This document shows positions 1,665 to 31,313 of a DNA stretch of 64,000 nucleotides, piece by piece. The translations under genes and the position numbers were made by a program. Source of the stretch: Streptomyces venezuelae (lineage in GTDB: Bacteria > Actinomycetota > Actinomycetes > Streptomycetales > Streptomycetaceae). The stretch spans positions 7,688,001 through 7,752,000 of the forward strand of contig NZ_CP029191.1 of NCBI RefSeq assembly GCF_008642335.1, written 5' to 3'. The notes below the pieces were generated by a model that did no database searches, had not been told where the DNA came from, and saw only the letters and a program-made list of their open reading frames with translations. The number at the start of each line of letters is the position of its first letter. The first letter of the stretch is position 1.

Positions 1665-3989
1665 TCAGGACGCGCTCGTCCCGATCTCCGCGCGGACCGT
1701 CCTGGCCGCCGCGACCAGGTTCTCCAGCGACGCGCGGGTCTCGGGCCAGCCACGCGTCTTCAGGCCGCAGTCCGGGTTGACCCAGAGCCGTTCGGCGGGG
1801 ATGGCGTCGAGCCCCTTGCGCAGCAGCGCGGCCGCCTCATCGGCGCCGGGGACGCGCGGGGAGTGGATGTCGTACACGCCGGGGCCCGCCTCGCGCGGAT
1901 AGCCGTGGGCGGCGAGTTCGCGCGCCACCTGCATGTGCGAGCGGGCCGCCTCCAGGCTGATGACATCGGCGTCGAGGTCGTCGATGGCCTGGACGACATC
2001 GCCGAACTCCGCGTAGCACATGTGCGTGTGGATCTGCGTGTCCGGCCGTACGCCGCTGGTGGTGAGGCGGAAGGACTCGGTGGCCCAGGCCAGGTAGGCG
2101 GGGTGGTCGGCGGCGCGCAGGGGCAGCGTCTCGCGCAGCGCGGGCTCGTCGACCTGGATGACGGAGGTGCCGGCGGCCTCCAGGTCGTCGACCTCGTCGC
2201 GCAGGGCGAGGGCGACCTGGCGCGCGGTGTCGCCGAGCGGCTGGTCGTCGCGGACGAACGACCAGGCGAGCATGGTGACGGGACCCGTGAGCATGCCCTT
2301 GACGGGCCGGTCGGTGAGGGAGTTGGCGTACGTCGTCCAGCGCACCGTCATCGCCTCGGGGCGCGAGATGTCACCGGCGAGGATCGGCGGGCGCACATAG
2401 CGGGTGCCGTACGACTGGACCCACCCGTGCTGCGTCGCGAGATAGCCGGTGAGCTGTTCGGCGAAGTACTGCACCATGTCGTTGCGTTCGGGCTCGCCGT
2501 GCACCAGGACGTCGATGCCGGTCTTCTCCTGGAACGCGATCACCTCCTGGATCTCGGCCTTGATGCGCTCCTCGTACTCGGCGCCGTCGATCCGCCCGGC
2601 CCGCAGGTCGGCGCGGGCCGCGCGCAGTTCGCCGGTCTGCGGGAACGAGCCGATGGTCGTCGTCGGCAGCAGCGGCAGGCCGAGTGCCGCGCGCTGGGCG
2701 GCGGCCCGCTCCGCGTACGGCTGGGAGCGCCGTGCGTCGGCGTCCGTGACGGCGCCGGCGCGGGCGCGGACGGCCGGGTCGCGGGTGATGGGGGAGCCGG
2801 CCCGCGACGCCAGGTCGGCGCGGTTCGCGGCGAGTTGGGTGGAGATCGTGTGGGTGCCGCGGGCCAGGCCGCGGGCGAGCGTCACGATCTCGGTGGTCTT
2901 CTGCCGGGCGAACGCCAGCCAGCGCAGGATCTGTGGCTCGATGTCCCGTTCGAGGCCTGTGTCGAGGGGGACGTGCAGGAGGGAGCAGGACGCGGCCACG
3001 TCGACCCGCTCGGCGAGGCCGAGCAGGGTGCCGAGGGTGGACAGGGACTTCTCCAGGTCGTTGACCCAGATGTTGCGCCCGTTGACGACACCGGCGACCA
3101 GGCGCTTGCCGGGCAGCCCGCCGACGGAGGCCAGCGCTTCGAGGTTGGCGGCGGCCGCCTCCGTGAAGTCGAGGGCGAGCCCGTCGACGGGAGCCTTCGC
3201 GAGGACGGGGAGGGCGTCGCCGAGCCGGTCGAAGTACGACGCGACGAGGAGCTTGGGGCGGTCGGTCAGGGCGCCGAGGTCACGGTAGGCGCGCTCGGCC
3301 GCGTTGAGATCGGCGGGCGTGCGGTCCTGGACGAGGGCGGGTTCGTCCAGCTGGACCCATTCGGCGCCCGCCGCGCGCAGGTCGGCGAGCACCTCCGCGT
3401 ACACCGGGAGCAGCCGGTCGAGCAGCGTCAGCGGGTCGAAGTCGGCGGGGACCCCGGGCGCGGGCTTGGCCAGCAGCAGATACGTGACCGGCCCCACGAG
3501 CACGGGCCGCGCCGTCAGCCCCAGCGCACGGGCCTCCTCGAACTCGGCCACCTGCTTGGAGGAGTCGGCGGTGAACACGGTTCCGGGCCCCAACTCGGGC
3601 ACGAGATAGTGGTAGTTGGTGTCGAACCACTTCGTCATCTCGAGGGGCGCCACGTCCTGCGTGCCGCGCGCCATCGCGAAGTAGCCGTCGAGGGCGTCCG
3701 CGTCGACGGCGGCGCGGTGCCGCTCCGGGACGGCGCCCACCATCACGGTGGTGTCCAGAACGTGGTCGTAGTACGAGAAGTCGCCGGTCGGGACTTCGCC
3801 GATGCCGGCGTCGGCGAGCTCACGCCAGTTGGCGCGGCGGAGGTCGGCGGAGGCGGTTCGGAGCGCGTCGGCGGTGACGCGGCCCTTCCAGTAGCCCTCG
3901 ACGGCCTTCTTCAGTTCGCGGTTCGGGCCCTGGCGGGGGTAGCCGTACACGGTGGCCCGTGCTGCCGCGGCTGCGGTCCTGGTGGTCAC
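1665..3989 (-). CDS. metE: Cobalamin-independent methionine synthase
   Basis: A 774-residue 5-methyltetrahydropteroyltriglutamate-homocysteine methyltransferase, which makes methionine without B12. It has the expected double-barrel length (E. coli 753). The C-terminal zinc site is visible: His and Cys in [10 protein letters not shown], the Glu in SLEAARSHM and the last Cys in [12 protein letters not shown]. The N-terminal barrel has the typical [15 protein letters not shown] start and the conserved [12 protein letters not shown]. The GTG at 3989 is chosen because AAGGAG sits six bases upstream; an in-frame reading upstream runs back into the leader and is not coding. The leader carries a cobalamin riboswitch, so expression should fall when B12 is available and MetH can replace this enzyme. 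Confidence 0.97.
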
Positions 3990-4025: not shown

Positions 4026-4159
4026 GGGGACGGGACGAGAGCGCGAAGGGTGACGCACCCGACGGGTCCGGGAACGCGCGGGGCGCGGCCGTCCGTCAGA
4101 TGTGTTCGCCGACCCGCCCTCGAGGTCACCGGGATATCCGCGCACGAATGGTTCGGGCA

Positions 4160-4362
4160 CGGACAGCGGGCAGGTCTTCGGACTCGCGGGCACGTCCTCC
4201 GGGGAGGACACCTACTGGCCGTCGCTTCCCAGGACCGTTCGTCGGTCCCAGTGCATGTGACGGCGGTCGTTCCCGCTCACCGCTGCGGGGCAGTCCCGGA
4301 TTTCCACCGGGTTCCCTCTTGCGACGCTCCCGTCTGGCGGACGGGGCGAACCAGCTGCACTG
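4160..4362 (-). promoter_or_regulatory. Cobalamin riboswitch (B12 aptamer) in the metE leader
   Basis: Reading the minus strand from about 4360, the leader has the family landmarks in order: a GGAACCCGGTGGAAATCCGG segment, then GACTGCCCCGCAGCGGT, then a CACTGG and GGGAAG pair, and the B12-box end CGAAGACCTGCCCGCTG near 4183-4166. These match the conserved core of the AdoCbl riboswitch class. It lies about 170 bases upstream of the metE start. Established knowledge: B12 riboswitches upstream of metE repress it when cobalamin is present. Confidence 0.93.
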
Positions 4363-4537
4363 ATCACCTTACGGCGCCGTCCGCGGGCGGACCGGGTCGC
4401 GGCCGGCATTCGGAAGGTGAGGTGGAACACGTGCGCGACAGGCTTCGGTCACGGTGCGGGCGGGAAGGCGGCGAGCCGCCGGCGGACGGCCCGAATCGAC
4501 CGACGGGCCGGGCCGGGGCACGGCAAGCTACGGGGAT

Positions 4538-18017: not shown

Positions 18018-19271
18018 CTACGCGCCGTCCGCCTCACCCCACGTCACAGGGAGTTCGTGAACGCCGTAGATGTTCATGCCCTCCCGCAGGGGCACGTCCT
18101 CCGGTGCCGCGGCGAGGCGCAGGGTCGGGAAGCGGGTGAGCAGGGACGGGAAGGCGACGCGCATCTCGACGCGGGCCAGTTGCTGGCCCAGGCACTGGTG
18201 GATGCCGTGGCCGAAGCCGAGGTGACCGGTCGCCTTGCGGTGCAGGTCGAGCCTGTCGGGGTCGGGGAACCTCGCCGGGTCCCGGTTCGCCGCCTCCATC
18301 GACAGGGTGACGGACTCGCCCTTTCTGATGAGTCGCCCCTCGACCTCCACGTCCTCCAGCGCCGCGCGGAGTCCGGTCTGGGCGATGGTGGCGTACCGCA
18401 TCAGTTCCTCGACGGCCTGATCGACGAGGCCCGGATCCGCGCGCAGGGCGGCCAGTTGGTCCGGGTTGGACAGCAGGGCGAACGTGCCGAACGCGATCAT
18501 GTTGGCCGTGGTGTCGAGCCCCGCGCCGAGCAGGAACCCGCCGATGCCGGTGAGTTCGTCGTCCGTGAGGTCGCTTGAGGTCAGGTCGCTGAGGAGGTCG
18601 TCGGTCGGCGCGGCGCGCTTCTCCAGGACCAGCTTCCGCATGTACTCGTCCATCGCGACCATGGCCGCCGCGCGCTCCTCCTCCGTGGAGCTCAGTGTCA
18701 TGGACGTCGCGACGTGTCGCTGAAACATGTCCTGGTCGGCGTGGGGCACGCCGAGCAGTTCGCAGATCATGAGCGCGGGAATGGGCCGCGCGTACGCCTC
18801 CATGAGGTCGACGACCGGCCCCCGGCGCTCCATCGCGTCCAGATGCTCGACGGTGATCTGCTCCACGCGTTCCGTGAGCAGCCGCATGCGGCGCACGGTG
18901 AACTTGCCGGCAAGCAGCCGTCGGTAGCGCGTGTGTTCGGGGGCATCGAGCCCGGTCATGTCTCCCGTGGGTGCGGGCGGCAGCTCACCGGTGAAGCCCG
19001 TGGCGAAGGGCATGTGCAGCAGTTCGTAGCGCGAGCTGAAACGTGTGTCTCCCAGGATCGCGCGGACGGCGGCGTGACCGGTGGCCAGCCAGCCCACGTG
19101 TCCGTCGGGGTATCGCAGGCGCGTGAGCGGCCGCTCCTCGCGCAGGCGCGTCAGCTCGGCGGGCGGATCGAACGGGCAGCTCTTGGTGCGGGTCGTGGGG
19201 AAGGCGGCCACGGGGGCATCCGGGGTTTCGGGGCCGGTCGACGGGTCGTTCTGCATGGTGCTGTTCTGCAT
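18018..19271 (-). CDS. Cytochrome P450
   Basis: A 417-residue soluble bacterial P450. The I-helix oxygen-activation motif is GAGLDTTAN, the K-helix ExxR is EELMR, and the heme loop is [16 protein letters not shown] with the axial Cys. All essential residues are present. The overall look is of the Streptomyces CYP107/CYP105 type used in secondary metabolism and xenobiotic oxidation. ATG at 19271 is chosen because GGAGGGG sits seven bases upstream. No ferredoxin gene is adjacent. The promoter region contains four TGGCGC elements that look like regulator sites. Confidence 0.93.
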
Positions 19272-23314: not shown

Positions 23315-23698
23315 GTGACAGTCACGACAGCCCCGCCACATGTCCAGGAGCAGTTCAGCCACGAGGACCTCGTCCGCTACCTCGAGGACCGCTTCGCCTG
23401 CGCCCAGGCCTGCGACGACTGCGCACGCGTGTGCCTCGTGCGCGAGGGCCCGGCCGAGCCGGGCGGGGCGCCCCGCCTCAACACCGCCTGCGCGGACGTG
23501 TGCGAGGCGACGTCCCGTGTCCTCGCCGAACAGAGCGACCAGGACGAGCAACGCGTCCGCATGCAGGTGGAGTGGTGCCGAGCGATCTGCCTCCAGTGCG
23601 CATCGCTCTGCGACCTGCACCCCGCGTCGGCCGCCGCCGCGGAAGCCTGCCGCCGCTGCGCGAAGGCATGTGACGCCTTCCTGACCACACTGGGCTGA
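23315..23698 (+). CDS. Four-helix-bundle copper-binding protein (Csp/DUF326-like)
   Basis: A 127-residue protein with 13 Cys laid out on predicted helices: CAQACDDCARVC, CADVC, WCRAICLQCASLC and CRRCAKAC. This Cys-every-third-or-fourth pattern is that of the ferredoxin-like four-helix bundles (DUF326, Csp proteins), which store many Cu(I) ions. No signal peptide is visible, so it would be cytosolic like Csp3. GTG at 23315 follows GGAGGGG. It lies directly upstream, same strand, of the putative metallophore operon, with two hairpins between. Copper storage is inferred from the family. Confidence 0.85.
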   Translation: MTVTTAPPHVQEQFSHEDLVRYLEDRFACAQACDDCARVCLVREGPAEPGGAPRLNTACADVCEATSRVLAEQSDQDEQRVRMQVEWCRAICLQCASLCDLHPASAAAAEACRRCAKACDAFLTTLG

Positions 23699-23736: not shown

Positions 23737-23765
23737 GGGCCGGGAACCAGAAGCGGTTCCGGCCC
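23737..23765 (+). terminator. Stem-loop after the copper-bundle gene
   Basis: GGGCCGGGAACC (23737-23748) pairs with GGTTCCGGCCC (23755-23765), with one bulged G and a six-base loop, 38 bases past the stop. Likely a terminator without a T-run, or an attenuator if the two units are cotranscribed. Confidence 0.55.
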
Positions 23766-23772
23766 GACCACT

Positions 23773-23816
23773 GTTCCAGAGTCCCCGCGCGGCCGCGCGT
23801 ACCCACGCTCTGGAAC
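23773..23816 (+). promoter_or_regulatory. Long inverted repeat abutting the Shine-Dalgarno of the methyltransferase gene
   Basis: GTTCCAGAG (23773-23781) and CTCTGGAAC (23808-23816) are exact complements; inside them is the self-complementary CGCGCGGCCGCGCG. The right arm ends immediately before GAGG (23817-23820), and the ATG is at 23831. It may be an operator or an RNA hairpin controlling the first gene of the metallophore-like operon. Confidence 0.5.
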
Positions 23817-23830
23817 GAGGTAGCAGCCCC

Positions 23831-24580
23831 ATGAACTGGTACGAGGACGACGATTTCTGGTCGGACTTCGCCGAGACCATGTTCTCCGAGCGCAGGCGCG
23901 CGGAGGTCGAGGCCCTCGTCGGCGGATCCCCGCTGCTCCGCTTCCCGGCCGGGAGCCGGGTCCTCGACCTCTGCTGCGGTCCCGGTCTGTACCTCGTGCC
24001 CCTGGCCCGCGCCGGGAGCACCGTCACCGGGGTCGACCTCAGCCCCGGCATGCTCAAGCGCGCCGACGCCGCGTGCGAGGCGGCGGGCGTCGATGTCCGC
24101 CTGGTACGAGGGGACATGCTGACGCACGTCGAGCCGGAGACGTACGACGTGGTGCTGAACCTCTTCACCTCGTTCGGCTACTTCGACGACCCGCGGGACA
24201 ACGAGCGCGTGCTGCGCAACGCCCACGACTCGCTCGTGCCGGGCGGGCGGCTGCTCATCGACGTGATGGGCAAGGAGGTCCTCGCGGGCTGGATCGGCCG
24301 GCCCCAGGTCGTCGACCTCGACGGCGGCGCGTACGTGCTGCAGCGCGACACCGTCCTCGACAGCTGGACCCGGCTGCGCACCGACTGGACGCTGGTCCGG
24401 GACGGGGAGGCGCGCGCCGCGTCGATCACCTCCTTCCTCTACAGCGGGGCCGAGCTGAGCGCCCTCTTCGAGGCGGCCGGCTTCACCGACGTGCGCTGTT
24501 ACGGCGACTTCGACGGCGGCCCGTACGACAACCACTCGAAGCGGCTGATCGTGACCGGCACCCGCCCTGAACTCTCATGA
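23831..24580 (+). CDS. SAM-dependent methyltransferase, first gene of a metallophore-like operon
   Basis: A 249-residue class I methyltransferase. Motif I is VLDLCCGPGLYLVPLA, followed by the acidic end of strand two (VTGVDLSPGML) and the motif-IV-like YDVVLNLFTSFGYF; the post-motif helix is ERVLRNAHDSLVPGGRLLIDV. The fold is that of small-molecule N-, O- or C-methyltransferases. Its TGA overlaps the ATG of the permease gene, so it is part of the transport and synthesis unit. I infer it decorates the chelator made by the later genes; the target atom cannot be told from sequence. Confidence 0.85.
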   Translation: MNWYEDDDFWSDFAETMFSERRRAEVEALVGGSPLLRFPAGSRVLDLCCGPGLYLVPLARAGSTVTGVDLSPGMLKRADAACEAAGVDVRLVRGDMLTHVEPETYDVVLNLFTSFGYFDDPRDNERVLRNAHDSLVPGGRLLIDVMGKEVLAGWIGRPQVVDLDGGAYVLQRDTVLDSWTRLRTDWTLVRDGEARAASITSFLYSGAELSALFEAAGFTDVRCYGDFDGGPYDNHSKRLIVTGTRPELS

Positions 24581-25701
24581 CCGAGGCGACATCCGCGGCA
24601 CCGCCCGCGGGCCGCGCCGCCCGCTCGCCGGGCACATCACGTCAGAACCACGACCAGCAACCCCCGGGCCGCGGGCGGCTGTTGACCACACTGACCGCAC
24701 TCTCCGTGACACTGGTGGTCTCCGTCCTGGCCGGTATCGCGCTGGGACCGACCGTCGTACCGCTCGGTGACGTCGTGCACTTCCTCACCGCCGCCCTCAC
24801 GGGAGGCACCATCGACGCGGACGACGCGTCGGGGTACGCCATCGTCTGGCACGTGCGCACGCCCCGGGTCCTGCTGGCCGCGGTCGTGGGAGCCGGACTG
24901 TCCGTCGTGGGCGTCGCCATCCAGGCGCTGGTGCGCAACGCCCTCGCGGACCCGTTCGTGCTCGGCATCTCGTCCGGCGCCTCGGTGGGCGCCACCGCCG
25001 TCGTCGTGTTCGGGATCTTCGCGGGACTCGGGGTGTACGCCCTCTCCGCCGCCGCCTTCCTCGGCGCTCTCGGCGCGACCGTACTGGTGTATCTGGCCGC
25101 GCGCGGACCGCTCGGCCTCACGCCGCTGCGGCTGGTGCTGACCGGCGTGGCGCTGGCGTACGGCTTCCAGGCGCTCATGAGCGTGCTGGTGTTCCTCGCA
25201 CCGAACGGGCAGGCCGCGCGGACCGTGCTGTTCTGGCTGCTCGGCAGCCTCGGCTCCGCGACCTGGGAGTCCCTGCCGCTCGTGACGGCGGCGGTCCTCG
25301 TCGCGGTCGTCGTACTGCTTCGGCACAGCCGGTCGCTCGACGTCCTGTCGCTCGGCGACGAGACCGCGGCCAGCCTCGGCGTGGACGCGGACGCGCTGCG
25401 CCGCGGCCTGTTCGTGCTCACCGCGGCCGTCACCGGGCTCATCGTCGCGGTCAGCGGCGCGATCGGCTTCGTCGGTCTCGTCCTGCCGCACGTGGTGCGG
25501 ATCTGGGTCGGCTCCACGCACCGGCGCGTCCTCGCCGTCGCGCCACTGGCCGGCGCCTGCTTCATGGTGTGGGTCGATCTCGTGGCCCGCACCGCCTTCG
25601 CCCCCGAGGAGCTGCCGCTCGGGGTGATCACCGCGCTGATCGGCGTACCGGTGTTCGTCGTCCTGATGCGCCGCCGCGGCTATCTCTTCGGAGGCCGGTA
25701 G
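24577..25701 (+). CDS. FecCD-type ABC transporter permease for metal chelates
   Basis: A 374-residue integral membrane protein with about ten membrane helices after a 35-residue cytoplasmic arm. Family landmarks include RTPRVLLAAVVGAGLSVVGV, the LVRNALADPFVLGISSGAS loop, LGDETAASLGVDAD (ATPase contact) and GFVGLVLPHVVRI. This is the permease type used for ferric siderophores, heme and B12. Only one permease gene is present, so it should act as a homodimer. Four-base overlap with the methyltransferase gene; the ATPase gene starts at the very next base after its stop. Confidence 0.93.
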   Translation: MTEATSAAPPAGRAARSPGTSRQNHDQQPPGRGRLLTTLTALSVTLVVSVLAGIALGPTVVPLGDVVHFLTAALTGGTIDADDASGYAIVWHVRTPRVLLAAVVGAGLSVVGVAIQALVRNALADPFVLGISSGASVGATAVVVFGIFAGLGVYALSAAAFLGALGATVLVYLAARGPLGLTPLRLVLTGVALAYGFQALMSVLVFLAPNGQAARTVLFWLLGSLGSATWESLPLVTAAVLVAVVVLLRHSRSLDVLSLGDETAASLGVDADALRRGLFVLTAAVTGLIVAVSGAIGFVGLVLPHVVRIWVGSTHRRVLAVAPLAGACFMVWVDLVARTAFAPEELPLGVITALIGVPVFVVLMRRRGYLFGGR

Positions 25702-26537
<836 letters not shown>

Positions 26538-26541
<4 letters not shown>

Positions 26542-27566
26542 CCCGACCCCCGTTCCCCCGAGCCCTCGCCGCCGGGCTCCTGGCCACCGGGCTCCTGCTG
26601 ACCGGCTGCGGCGCCGAGGTCGAATCGGCGGCGGGCGGCAAGCCCGGCACCGGCTCCGGCAAGGGCGCCGACACCGTCACCGTCTCCAACTGCGGCAAAA
26701 ACGTCACGTACATCCGCCCGGAGCGCGCGATCGCCTACGACGTGAGCGGCGCGGAGAAGATGTTCGCCCTCGGCCTCGCGGACCGCATGCGCGGCTACGT
26801 CATGAACAAGCTCGGCGACCCCTCCATCAAGGGCTCGCCCTGGCGGGAGAAGTACGCCGAGGTCGACCGCCTCGGCAACGAACGCATCACCCGCGAGATC
26901 GTCGTCGACGCGAAGGCCGACTGGGTCCTCGCCGGCTGGAACTCCGGCTTCAGCGAGGAACGCGGCATCACCCCCGCCCTCCTTGACAAGGTCGGCGTCG
27001 CCAGCTACCTGCACACCGAGACCTGCTGGGACTACGGAAACAAGAGCGTCGACACCTCGCCCCTCCAGGCGCTCTACACGGACCTGGACAACCTCGGGAA
27101 GATCTTCGGCGTCGAGAAGCGCGCCGACAAGCTCGTCGACGAACTCAAGGAGCGGGTCGCCGCGCTGAAGAAGACGTGGCCCGCCAAGGGCGACCCGGCC
27201 AAGGTGTTCGTCTACGACTCCGGCACCGACCAGCCGTTCACGGCCGGCCGGCACGCCGCACCCGACGACATCATCACCGCCGCCGGCGGCACCAACGTCT
27301 TCGGGGACCTCGACAAGGGGTGGACGACGGTGGGCTGGGAGCCGGTCATCAAGGCGAAACCCGACGTCATCGTGATCGTCGACTACGCCGACCAGCCCGC
27401 GAAGGACAAGATCGCCTACCTCAAGAAGCTGCCGAGCCTGAAGTCCGTTCCGGCGGTGCGGAACAACCGCTTCCACGTCATGTCGTACGGCGATGTCGTC
27501 AGCGGCCCCCGCAACGTCGCGGGCGCCGAGGACCTGGGCCGCTACCTGCGTTCGGTCGGGCGGTGA
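26538..27566 (+). CDS. Metal-chelate-binding lipoprotein (class III SBP)
   Basis: A 342-residue substrate-binding protein of the FecB/BtuF class, anchored by lipid: GLLATGLLLTGCGAE. The mature domain begins at VTVSNCGKNVTYI and has the two-lobe layout, with AIAYDVSGAEKMFALGLADRM at the first lobe and GWEPVIKAKPDVIVIVDYAD and VMSYGDVVSGPRNV in the second. It would capture a metal complex outside the cell for the FecCD permease. GTG start overlapping the ATPase stop; its own stop overlaps the GTG of the PLP-enzyme gene. Confidence 0.93.
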
Positions 27567-28729
27567 CGGCGACAGTGACCCCCACGCACACCGTCACCGC
27601 CCCGGTCCACGACCACATCACCGACGCGATAAAGGCCCCGGACCTGCTGCGCCTGTCCGACAACGTCGTCCTCGCCCGCTTCGAGACCCTCAAGGTGTAC
27701 GCCGCCCTCGGCGCCGTCCGCACGCTGCTCGAACGCGGAACCGTCACACCGGGACAGACCCTCGTCGACAGCTCCAGCGGCATCTACGCGCTCGCCCTGG
27801 CCATGGCCTGCCACCGCTACGGCCTGCACTGCCACATCGTCGCCTCCACCACGGTCGACGCCACGATGCGCGCCCAGCTGGAGGTGCTCGGCGCCACCGT
27901 GGACCAGATGCCGCCCTCGGAGGACCTGCGGCTCGACCAGGAGGGCAGGGTCCGGCGCGTCCGCCGGCTGCTGGCCGAGCGGCCCGGCATGCACTGGATG
28001 CGGCAGTACCACGACGCCGTCCACTACACCGGCTACCGGGAGTTCGCCGCGCTCGTCGACCGCGCGCTGCCCGGCGTACCGCTGACCGTCGTCGGGGCCG
28101 TGGGCACGGGATCGTCGAGCGGCGGCCTCGTCGAGGCGCTGCGCGGACGCGACCGTGACGTACGCCTGCTGGGCGTGCAGCCCTTCGGCAGCGTCACGTT
28201 CGGCAGCGAGCGGTTCAGCGACCCCGAGGCGATCATCGCCGGGATCGGCAGCTCCATCCCCTTCGACAACGTCCACCACGACCTGTACGACACCCTCCAC
28301 TGGCTCGACTTCCGGCACGCCATGGCGGGTGCGGTGGGACTGCTGCGCGACCATGCGGTGTTCGCCGGTCTCTCGACGGGTGCGGGGCACCTGGTCGCGG
28401 GCTGGGAGGCCGCGCGCGACCCCGAGCGCACCCACCTCGTCATCGGCGCCGACACCGGACACCGCTACACCGACCGCGTCTTCGCCCGCCACCGCGAGGC
28501 ACTCGACCCGCGCACGCTGAAACCGCACCAGATCACCGACCTCGCGGACCTCACTCCGCCCTGGTCGGCGATGGAGTGGAACCGGCGCCGGTACGAGGTA
28601 CGGGGTGGCGACGGCGGGGGAGGCGTACCCGCGCCGACCAAGGCGCAGCTCGTACGGGAGACACATCCGCTCATGCTCGCGGGCGACGGCCCGCTCGGGG
28701 CAACGCACCAGGAGGACCAGGCACGATGA
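27563..28729 (+). CDS. PLP-dependent cysteine-synthase-like enzyme
   Basis: A 388-residue fold-type II PLP enzyme. The usual SVKDR lysine region is replaced by ETLKVYAALGAV, where the Lys is the likely Schiff-base residue. The substrate-binding loop is DSSSGIYALALA in place of TSGNTG, and the phosphate-binding Gly/Ser loop is GTGSSSGG. Family members make cysteine or, as with SbnA of staphyloferrin B, a precursor of diaminopropionate. Here, between an importer and an ATP-grasp gene, it likely builds an unusual amino acid for a metal chelator. It is longer than OASS (about 310) by a C-terminal extension. Precise reaction unknown. Confidence 0.82.
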   Translation: MTATVTPTHTVTAPVHDHITDAIKAPDLLRLSDNVVLARFETLKVYAALGAVRTLLERGTVTPGQTLVDSSSGIYALALAMACHRYGLHCHIVASTTVDATMRAQLEVLGATVDQMPPSEDLRLDQEGRVRRVRRLLAERPGMHWMRQYHDAVHYTGYREFAALVDRALPGVPLTVVGAVGTGSSSGGLVEALRGRDRDVRLLGVQPFGSVTFGSERFSDPEAIIAGIGSSIPFDNVHHDLYDTLHWLDFRHAMAGAVGLLRDHAVFAGLSTGAGHLVAGWEAARDPERTHLVIGADTGHRYTDRVFARHREALDPRTLKPHQITDLADLTPPWSAMEWNRRRYEVRGGDGGGGVPAPTKAQLVRETHPLMLAGDGPLGATHQEDQAR

Positions 28730-29982
28730 CCATCGCCGCACTCGAAGCTCTCACCTTCGGCCTGGGCCGCCTCGTCGAGGCCGCGGACGCCGCCGGGCAC
28801 CGCCTGTGCCTGCTCACCGGCGACCGCGACGTCTACCGTCACGAACTCGCCCACCTCGCCCCCGGGGCACTCGACATCGTCGACGTCGACACCGACGACG
28901 CCGGAGCCTGCGCGGCCGCCCTGTCGGCCATGCCCGACCTGAGCGGGCTCATCAACTCGACCGACACCTGGAGCGTGCCCGGCGCCGACCTCGCCGCCAA
29001 GTTCGGCCTGCCCGGGCCCGACCCGAGCGCGGTCCGGCTCCTGCGCGACAAGAGCCGGGTGCGCGCGCTCCTCCACGAGCGGGGCCTGAGCGGCAGCCGC
29101 GCCGTGGCCGTCCCGGCGCCGACCTCCTCGGCCACCGCCACGGCGGCCGCCGCCGAGATCCTCCGCGAAGTCGGCCTGCCCGCCGTCCTGAAGGACTCCG
29201 CGGGCACGTCCTCCCGCAACGTATGGCCGGTGCGGGACGAGCGGCAGTTGCACGCCGCGCTCAGCGAAGCCGCCCAACGCCCCTTCAACGGGCGGCTGTT
29301 CGCCGAGCGTTTCTTCTCCGGGCCGGTCTACAGCGCGGAGACCCTCGGCTGGGAGGGCGAGACGAAGCTGCTCGGAGTCCTGAGCCGCCAGATGTCACCC
29401 GAGCCGTCCGTCCGCGAGGAGGCGGCGGCGTTCCCCGTGGCCTTCCCGCTGCCCGAACTCGCCCGCATCGAGGAGTGGGTAGGACGCGTGCTGGCCGCCG
29501 CGGGCCACGACAGCGGCTTCGCGCACGTGGAGTTCGTCCTCACCGCGGACGGCCCGGAGCTGGTGGAGATCAACCGCCGCATCGGCGGCGCCCTCGTCGG
29601 CGAGGCCCTGTGCCGCGCCCTGGGCACCAACGTGTACGAGGCCCTGGTCGACACGGCGCTCGGCCGCCGCCCCGCGCTCCTCGACGCGGTGTCGACCGGG
29701 TACGCCCCGGAACGGGCCACGGCCTTCGTGCTCGTCTACCCCGACCGCCCCGGCACCCTCACCGGCTGGACCGGCCTCGACGGTCTGGCGGCGTTCCCCG
29801 GTTCGCCCGAGTGGTACCCGACGGCGGTCCCGGGGCGGCGTGTGGAGCACCTGAGCGACCAGCGCGGATGCACGGGAATCGTGCTGGCCGAGGCCGAAAC
29901 CGCGGAACTCGCCCTGCACAGGGCGCTCAGCGCGGCCGGCAGCATACGGCCGACCGTCGTGGGCGACGACAACCGAGGATGA
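28726..29982 (+). CDS. ATP-grasp ligase
   Basis: A 418-residue ATP-grasp enzyme that would activate a carboxylate as acyl-phosphate and join it to an amine. Residues about 100-140 hold LLRDKSRVRALLHERGL, the ATP-lid Lys is in LPAVLKDSAGTSSRNV, and the Mg site is in FAHVEFVLTADGPELVEINRRIGGAL. The resemblance is to L-amino-acid ligases and related peptide-forming members. ATGA overlap with the PLP gene and with the MFS gene. It is the only condensing enzyme in the operon, so the product would be small, for example a dipeptide-like chelator. Confidence 0.87.
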   Translation: MTIAALEALTFGLGRLVEAADAAGHRLCLLTGDRDVYRHELAHLAPGALDIVDVDTDDAGACAAALSAMPDLSGLINSTDTWSVPGADLAAKFGLPGPDPSAVRLLRDKSRVRALLHERGLSGSRAVAVPAPTSSATATAAAAEILREVGLPAVLKDSAGTSSRNVWPVRDERQLHAALSEAAQRPFNGRLFAERFFSGPVYSAETLGWEGETKLLGVLSRQMSPEPSVREEAAAFPVAFPLPELARIEEWVGRVLAAAGHDSGFAHVEFVLTADGPELVEINRRIGGALVGEALCRALGTNVYEALVDTALGRRPALLDAVSTGYAPERATAFVLVYPDRPGTLTGWTGLDGLAAFPGSPEWYPTAVPGRRVEHLSDQRGCTGIVLAEAETAELALHRALSAAGSIRPTVVGDDNRG

Positions 29983-31313
29983 ACCCGTCACCCCACCAGC
30001 CGACACCGACACCGACACCGAAACCGAGGCCGAGGCCGAGGCCGACGCCGACGGGCCTGGCACAGTTCACCCACTTCACCGCTCCCCAGTACTTCCTCCT
30101 CGTCGGCTCGTTCCTCATCCCCTTGGGCAGCTTCGCCGTGCTGCCCTTCACGTCCGTCCTGCTGCACGAACGGCTGGGCATGGGGCTCGGCACCGTCGGC
30201 GTGGTGCTGGCCGTCGCCTCGTTCGTGCAGTTCTCGGGCGGTGTCGTCGGTGGGGCCCTGGCCGAACGCATCGGCCTGCAGCCCACCATGCTGCTGGCCC
30301 TGGTGATCCGCACGGCGGGCTTCGCCGTGTTCCTGCCGGGGCTGAGCCGACCCGCGTGGGCGGTCGCCGCGCTGTTCCTCGTCTCCGTCGGGGCCGCGCT
30401 CTACCTGCCCGCCAACAAGGCGTACCTGGTCACGGGGGTGGGGGAGGAGCGGCGCGCGCCGCTCCTGTCCGCGAGCAGCTCGGCGCTCAACGCGGGTATC
30501 GCACTGGGCCCTCTCGCGGCCGCGCCCTTCGTCCTGACGGCGTCGGCGGGGCTCTTCACGGCGGTCGCCGTGCTGTTCGGCCTGATCACGGCGGGGCACG
30601 CGCTGCTCCCGCAGGCGACAGCGCGAGCGACCCCGGAGGCAGCACCCTCCGAGGACGACCAGGATGAGCGTGAGCGGCCGACGGAAGGGCCGACCCTCCT
30701 CCCCTTCGCGATCACCGTGCTGAGCGTGTACGTCTTCATGTTCTTCCAGCACTACCTCGCGCTGTACGCGGTGGGCAGGACATCGACGCTCTTCTACGGC
30801 CTCGTCCTGGCCCTCTACGCCCTCCTCCTCGTGGTCGCCCAGCCCCTCCTCTCGGACTGGATGGCCCACCTGCCCTACCTGCGCGCCCTACGCATCGGTT
30901 TCACCGCGCTGGCCGCGGGCATGGCGGCGCTGGCGCTCGGCCACCCCGCCGCGATCCTCGGCGGGGCGCTGCTCATCTGCGTCGGCGAGGTCGTCCTGTT
31001 CCTGAAGAACGACCTGGAAGCCCTCGCGCGGTCCACCCGCTCGCCCGCGGTCGTCTTCGGCCGGCAGCGCCTGGCGGCGGGGATCGGCGCGTTCGCCAGC
31101 GGGATCGCCGGGGGAGAGGGGTACGCGTGGGCCGAACGCGCCGACCGCGCGGGCCTGTTCTGGCTGGCGGTGGCGGCGCAGTGCGTGCTGCTGCCACCGC
31201 TGTTGCTGCGTGCCCTGCGCGGACCCATTCCCTATTTCTGCAACGGGTTCTACTCTGTGCGCCGTCGGGTCCGGGACCGAGCGAGCCGAGCCGGCCGAGC
31301 GTCGAGCCAGTAG
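29979..31313 (+). CDS. MFS transporter, probable exporter
   Basis: A 444-residue major facilitator with about 11-12 membrane helices. The N-terminal arm is a Pro-Thr/Pro-Arg repeat (PTPTPTPKPRPRPRP) from a 6-base DNA repeat. Helix 2-3 loop GGALAERIGLQPT fits the MFS A-like motif. A charged Glu/Asp loop (SEDDQDERERPTEG) separates the halves. Placed after the synthesis genes with a four-base overlap, it most likely exports the product, as MFS pumps do for staphyloferrins and similar compounds. It closes the cycle with the ABC importer. Confidence 0.88.
   Translation: MNPSPHQPTPTPTPKPRPRPRPTPTGLAQFTHFTAPQYFLLVGSFLIPLGSFAVLPFTSVLLHERLGMGLGTVGVVLAVASFVQFSGGVVGGALAERIGLQPTMLLALVIRTAGFAVFLPGLSRPAWAVAALFLVSVGAALYLPANKAYLVTGVGEERRAPLLSASSSALNAGIALGPLAAAPFVLTASAGLFTAVAVLFGLITAGHALLPQATARATPEAAPSEDDQDERERPTEGPTLLPFAITVLSVYVFMFFQHYLALYAVGRTSTLFYGLVLALYALLLVVAQPLLSDWMAHLPYLRALRIGFTALAAGMAALALGHPAAILGGALLICVGEVVLFLKNDLEALARSTRSPAVVFGRQRLAAGIGAFASGIAGGEGYAWAERADRAGLFWLAVAAQCVLLPPLLLRALRGPIPYFCNGFYSVRRRVRDRASRAGRASSQ

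Follow-up and report, generated by a model that had tools for sequence, protein, structure and literature searches.

A seven-gene operon of Streptomyces venezuelae probably directs the synthesis, export, and re-import of a small metal chelator based on amino acids. The operon lies at positions 23831-31313 of the window (by which we mean the whole 64,000-nucleotide stretch that we analyzed, from a host genome of 8.05 Mb in a single contig). A metallophore function is well supported by the sequence comparisons, and we think it fairly likely that the operon is specifically a copper-acquisition metallophore (chalkophore-type) under the control of a SigC-like ECF sigma factor.

The operon comprises seven open reading frames on the + strand: a methyltransferase (MT), a FecCD permease, an ABC ATPase, a substrate-binding lipoprotein (SBP), a PLP enzyme, an ATP-grasp ligase, and an MFS transporter. 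The junctions are 4-bp ATGA or GTGA overlaps, except for FecCD/ATPase (0 bp). A preliminary description of this DNA had reported seven genes in one direction with junctions of 0-4 bp, and both this layout and the families that it assigned hold, as all seven proteins score above the Pfam cut-off. The MT (23831-24580; PF13649, E = 9.7e-20) is predicted to be SAM-dependent. It is followed by a FecCD-type importer permease (24577-25701; PF01032, E = 9.4e-87), an ABC importer ATPase (25702-26541; PF00005, E = 2.3e-33), and a metal-chelate-type SBP (26538-27566; PF01497, E = 3.3e-20). The closest NCBIfam models for the permease ("F420-0 ABC permease") and for the SBP ("F420-0 ABC SBP" and EitA) scored below their cut-offs. 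Next are a fold type II PLP enzyme of what we term the SSSGIY family (27563-28729, alternative start 27575; PF00291, E = 1.1e-30), the ATP-grasp protein (28726-29982), and the MFS transporter (29979-31313; PF07690, E = 2.2e-19), which is a probable exporter. The ATP-grasp protein is a predicted L-amino-acid ligase: it has both the ATP-grasp domain (PF13535, 36.9 bits, cut-off 27) and the LAL C-terminal domain (PF18603 or LAL_C2, 56.4 bits, cut-off 29.4), and its top PDB matches are L-amino acid ligases (best 3vot). An acyl-CoA dehydrogenase-like gene lies 14 bp past the MFS gene, but we rejected it as an operon member because its family was found in only one other genome (L036, which is the same as L096).

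Directly 5' of the operon is a Cys-rich gene (23315-23698, + strand) that resembles copper storage proteins (Csp). Its best PDB match is a cytosolic copper storage protein (6qvh, E = 1.4e-10); nine PDB sequences matched at E up to 1, eight of them at 2.7e-07 or less, and all were copper storage protein or CSP3. It also matches DUF326 (20.9 bits, cut-off 20.4). We do not consider it to be a conserved eighth member of the operon, as it was found in no other compared locus. The preliminary description covered neither this gene nor the promoter at 23742-23773 nor the genomic paralogue of the PLP enzyme, both of which are discussed below.

The PLP enzyme had been described as altered around the PLP lysine. 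In fact, the lysine itself is retained (K44, in 106 of 107 aligned sequences, with a gap in the other), but the preceding Asn-Pro loop is missing, and SSSGIY stands in place of the SGN loop; this replacement is exact in 102 of 107 sequences and has one change in the other five. The predicted structure (pLDDT 76.4) has the OASS/SbnA/CBS fold. When we searched with this model, no single enzyme stood out: O-acetylserine sulfhydrylases, SbnA, and cystathionine beta-synthases tied. The sequence scored 130.3 bits against the SbnA model (cut-off 349.95), so it does not qualify as SbnA, and its second-best PDB sequence match was CmnB (8if7, E = 5.1e-16). Firm grouping with primary-metabolism enzymes would have counted against the proposal in the preliminary description; the enzyme stood apart from our reference set, which was the other three type-II PLP enzymes in its own genome. 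This genome also encodes a PLP paralogue (60% identity) outside the operon.

We compared the neighborhoods of 107 PLP genes: the window, 60 chosen stretches from the matches in 295 genomes of the same genus, and 46 named loci. Four named loci are repeats (L096, L099, L102, and L103), which leaves 103 non-duplicate loci. (The loci were picked as relatives of the PLP gene and not at random, so the sample favors relatives.) The exact seven-gene order is present in 8 of the 103 (the window, L037, L038, L040, L098, L100, L104, and L136), and the named loci with this order include Streptomyces and Saccharopolyspora. So, the order is not confined to this strain. A further 14 of the 103 loci, 11 of them from Amycolatopsis, have the other six genes but no adjacent MFS, and MT-PLP-ATP-grasp is contiguous in 16 of the 103. 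We defined the window's group as the 64 non-duplicate loci that have MT or ATP-grasp and are without DUF364 or GHMP kinase. Within this group, MT is found in 59 loci, ATP-grasp in 62, FecCD in 30, the same MFS family in 33, and an Opp-type SBP in 5. Thus, the operon is conserved and modular. In some relatives, an enolase-superfamily gene and an Opp-type importer are also present. Among the titles and abstract openings listed in searches of the open-access literature, none describes the seven-gene operon.

Upstream of the MT gene is an ECF-type promoter, GGGAAC-N16-CCGACCACTG (23742-23773, + strand; genome position 7711742), which is conserved before the operons of the group. The sequence there is GGGAACCAGAAGCGGTTCCGGCCCGACCACTG, and the motif (GGGAACY-N16-CGACYA) begins 89 bp 5' of the MT gene. 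A looser form, GGAAC-N16-18-CGACY, had 251 matches in 2.08 Mb of loci, versus 31 in reversed sequences (with duplicates counted). Its intergenic matches precede MT (54), FecCD (16), PLP (14), ferric-reductase-like (11), and P450 (10) genes, among others. Under a fixed rule (motif at most 300 bp 5' of a cluster gene whose upstream gap is at least 40 bp), GGGAACY-N15-17-CGACY is present in 50 of the 64 loci of the window's group, while the backwards motif is present in none; in the two sister groups the motif was found in 0 of 24 and 0 of 14 loci. Among the misses, L036 and L097 are at contig ends, L042, L047, and L120 have the motif at 324-362 bp, and L121, L132, L134, and L141 have variant CGGAAC or TGGAAC forms. 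No promoter motif was seen in L052, L092, L094, L095, or L106. Genome-wide enrichment of the motif is by itself modest: 118 of 150 same-genus genomes have a match, and the matches sum to 309, versus 216 for the control. When the pattern was given a CT tail, the host genome had 3 matches (versus 1 in the backwards control), but another form of the pattern had 3 matches versus 3, so this genome by itself proves little. The three CT-tail sites are before the window's operon, before a gene for a CopA-like P1B-ATPase, and within a gene (L153).

The other genes that share this promoter include many that handle copper. In the host genome, the motif leads the CopA-like P1B-ATPase and then a PCuAC-like gene, whose relative L196 is a PCuAC by Pfam. 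The genes that it leads in other genomes include those for P1B-ATPase, PCuAC, CopZ, DyP, PepSY-TM, and importers, as well as the ECF gene itself. We picked 40 regions among the matches listed, with preference for intact −10 elements, which gave 48 intergenic sites. PepSY-TM operons are at 24 of these sites (16 with PepSY-TM alone); P1B-ATPase, PCuAC, or CopZ are at 9; and an SBP importer is at 7. In all, 32 of the 48 sites lead at least one of the following: PepSY-TM (which may or may not handle copper), DyP, a copper gene, the ECF gene, or the gene for its membrane partner. However, this is not an unbiased rate because the regions were chosen for intact motifs. Of the remaining sites, 6 lead an importer only and 10 lead genes of no classified family. 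One locus (L221) has a PCuAC-DyP pair under the motif, which recalls the sco-ecuC-dtpA operon of S. lividans. According to excerpts of a report on S. lividans, added copper restores the maturation of GlxA in dtpA and ecuC mutants (PMC4736821). After the cluster of Plantactinospora mayteni (L130) come CopC, PCuAC, DyP, CopC, and PepSY-TM genes, and the motif copies before PCuAC and PepSY-TM are of the looser TGGAAC/CGGAAC form. As the operon is in an ECF-sigma regulon that is rich in copper-handling genes, copper is the likelier metal.

An ECF sigma gene is present in 28 of the 64 loci of the window's group and in none of the sister groups of 24 and 14 loci. The host genome encodes a close relative of this cluster ECF at 7888458-7889015 (63% identity, 225 bits; the runner-up had 62 bits). 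It adjoins a membrane-protein gene, and one segment of that protein is rich in Met and His. The richest 30 residues of this protein include 7 H/M, and the corresponding counts in 25 relatives are 5 to 13; the background mean is 3.4 (551 proteins of similar size), and the poorer relatives overlap this background. Among NCBIfam models, the ECF factor best matches SigC (NF007231), at 184.8 bits versus a cut-off of 219, and an unnamed sigma model (PRK12535) scores 177.8. The PDB entry that it matches best is 2o7g, the "sigma-C factor" of M. tuberculosis (E = 3.3e-30). Excerpts of a study of M. tuberculosis describe SigC as guarding against copper starvation and as driving ctpB and the nrp operon (PMC7924339).

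Other clades of the PLP enzyme have other switches. The PLP paralogue in the host genome is clustered with a DUF364 gene, an MFS gene, and FecCD-ATPase-SBP. (The DUF364 family is annotated as "putative heavy-metal chelation," which we checked on L080.) A Zur-type box is found within the fixed rule at 20 of 24 DUF364 loci, versus 0 for the control, although this count is partly circular because the consensus was refined on the hits of an earlier box scan. Three more DUF364 loci (L065, L069, and L082) have a farther Zur box. In the host genome, allowing up to 2 mismatches, the Zur box had 4 matches (versus 2 for the control) at two loci: the DUF364 cluster and the start of a ZnuA gene. A third group, of 12 Streptomyces loci, has the order GHMP kinase-PLP-ATP-grasp-MFS-MT. 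All 12 have a cobalamin riboswitch (RF00174) 120-359 bp 5' of the GHMP gene, and 7 have a second one 29-31 bp 5' of the SBP gene. Cobalamin riboswitches were not found in two further GHMP-bearing loci (L091 and L093), nor by Rfam in the 7 ECF-group and 7 Zur-type loci that were scanned. The window has a cobalamin riboswitch at 4152-4370 on the minus strand, which we rejected as the operon's switch because it leads a gene that is distant from the operon. In a FastTree phylogeny of the PLP proteins (with duplicates included and the fragment L141 dropped), the three switch types separate. The ECF clade has 64 rows, 52 with the motif and 12 without (support 0.81); the riboswitch clade has the riboswitch in 12 of 12 (support 1.0); the Zur clade has 24 rows, 20 with the box (support 0.94); and six more rows branch outside.

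We propose that when copper is scarce, the SigC-like ECF factor would transcribe the operon from the promoter at 23742, with the adjacent Met/His-rich membrane protein as a possible sensor. The PLP enzyme would combine activated serine with a nucleophile to give a beta-substituted alanine, and the ATP-grasp ligase would join this to another amino acid. After modification by the methyltransferase, the chelator would leave the cell through the MFS protein, and the metal complex would return via SBP-FecCD-ATPase. The sequences show the gene families, that the operon and its promoter are conserved, and that many copper genes share this promoter. From these, we infer the low-copper signal, the sensor, each chemical step, the binding of copper, and the transported cargo, as well as a methylated, amino-acid-derived chelator as the product. 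An NRPS-free make-export-import metallophore operon with an SbnA-like enzyme but without SbnB, as proposed in the preliminary description, fits the comparative evidence, but that proposal did not take in regulation, and the promoter points to copper.

As FecCD/PF01497 importers often serve siderophores, the operon might instead encode an iron siderophore system, in which the chelator brings ferric iron back via FecCD, like systems of the staphyloferrin B type. The FhuF-like and ferric-reductase-like genes that carry the motif in some relatives could point to iron. However, the shared promoter leads copper genes. Also, we scored iron boxes (19-mers of the DmdR type) and Zur boxes in the intergenic stretches around the 107 PLP genes, and the iron-box scores in the intergenic regions of the core genes were not above background. 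Five iron boxes scored at least 16/19, all at flanking non-core genes, while the Zur boxes sit at core genes, in the DUF364 sister group. We therefore consider the iron reading to be unlikely. Another account is that the product is a peptide-like antimetabolite or signal that is not a metal ligand, with the ABC importer for self-uptake. The combination of a PLP enzyme, an ATP-grasp ligase, and an MFS transporter is a known antimetabolite layout, and the enolase-superfamily gene and Opp-type importer of some relatives would fit with this. Nevertheless, we give this account little weight: three metal- or B12-linked controls on three clades of one enzyme, and the recurrent metal-chelate-type importer, suit a metal ligand better.

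If the metal is copper, then the ECF factor could respond to copper excess instead, with the exported ligand sequestering copper outside the cell. Possible parts of a detoxification system are indeed tied to the motif or to the operon (the CopA-like P1B-ATPase and the Csp-like gene). This seems quite improbable because the operon includes an importer, because the PCuAC-DyP pair under the motif in L221 is like ecuC/dtpA of S. lividans, whose mutants are rescued by copper in the excerpted report (PMC4736821), and because SigC works in starvation, again according to excerpts (PMC7924339).

Beyond copper acquisition by this operon, a broader proposal seems to us to be evenly balanced between true and false: that there is an undescribed NRPS-free metallophore superfamily built on the SSSGIY PLP enzyme, in most cases together with an ATP-grasp ligase and methyltransferase, whose clades are switched by a SigC-like sigma factor (copper), Zur (zinc), or a cobalamin riboswitch (cobalt). 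The host genome would have both copper and zinc versions, the PLP enzyme would make the metal-binding amino acid by a new beta-substitution, and metal preference would be tuned by the partner enzymes. To our knowledge, the copper-scavenging molecules described from bacteria are few (methanobactins and isonitriles). A compact and widespread NRPS-free class would bring new chemistry, and mining rules for NRPS/NIS may miss it. Also, one enzyme family that is matched clade by clade to copper, zinc, and B12/cobalt switches would be a natural experiment on the evolution of metal selectivity among small chelators. The match also predicts which metal to withhold to reveal each product.

Among known systems, the staphyloferrin B (sbn) genes include SbnA, which the PLP enzyme resembles, but it is far below the SbnA cut-off and has the SSSGIY loop. 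Staphyloferrin B uses IucA/IucC synthetases; there is no such synthetase among the seven operon proteins, which include an ATP-grasp ligase and a methyltransferase instead. The lack of an SbnB-like partner, which had been claimed, was confirmed: a PF02423 search of the host genome gave a single OCD/mu-crystallin gene (6688707-6689597), about 1 Mb away. CmnB from the 2,3-diaminopropionate branch of capreomycin biosynthesis also matches the PLP enzyme in sequence, but there is no SbnB/CmnK-like partner near the operon and the operon's company differs. The Zur-type DUF364 clusters, including the one in the host genome, share the PLP enzyme family, FecCD-ATPase-SBP, and MFS, but they have a Zur box rather than an ECF promoter, they have the DUF364 gene, and their recorded gene orders do not include an ATP-grasp protein of the operon's family.

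The SigC/nrp chalkophore system of M. tuberculosis is similar in that a SigC-type sigma factor is tied to copper supply and to a P1B-ATPase (ctpB there, according to excerpts of PMC7924339, and CopA-like here). It differs in that the nrp product is an NRPS-made isonitrile lipopeptide, whereas the operon is without an NRPS, and the ECF factor scores below the SigC cut-off. Predicted biosynthesis, export, and import genes are together in one operon, as in a chalkophore system, and the operon would act like one, which makes it a candidate member of that class. On the simplest account, the operon supplies copper by means of a chelator and has counterparts for zinc and B12/cobalt.

A cobalamin riboswitch stands ahead of the PLP/ATP-grasp/methyltransferase genes in 12 Streptomyces relatives (L056-L064 and L066-L068 among the compared loci), which are candidate cobalt-chelator loci. 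The window has a cobalamin riboswitch of its own on the minus strand (4152-4370, 95.2 bits); it precedes a minus-strand gene (1665-3989) whose product resembles a methionine synthase on visual inspection.

An inverted repeat (GTTCCAGAG...CTCTGGAAC), possibly a leader hairpin, lies at 23773-23816 of the window, in the gap between the operon's promoter and its first start codon. The window also encodes a P450 on the minus strand (18018-19271), from a sequence family that is common to the P450 genes of Saccharothrix and related loci that bear the ECF motif. No ECF motif was seen upstream of this gene in the window.

The PLP gene's paralogue in the same genome lies in a cluster (L055:4385-11650, near genome positions 6822684-6829949) with DUF364-like, MFS and FecCD-ATPase-SBP genes, and we consider this cluster a candidate zincophore locus. 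The cluster also includes a divergent GHMP-kinase-like gene, and its Zur box is near-perfect.

A basal branch of the PLP family (L091, L093, L094, and L095) has an ATP-grasp gene alongside, together with genes whose products, by eye, resemble tetrapyrrole methylases. At these four loci we saw no ECF motif, Zur box, or riboswitch (the riboswitch scan covered L091 and L093). Finally, the Micromonospora-type relatives (L130-L138) have extra genes for an enolase-superfamily protein and a second methyltransferase, and several also have an Opp-type importer.
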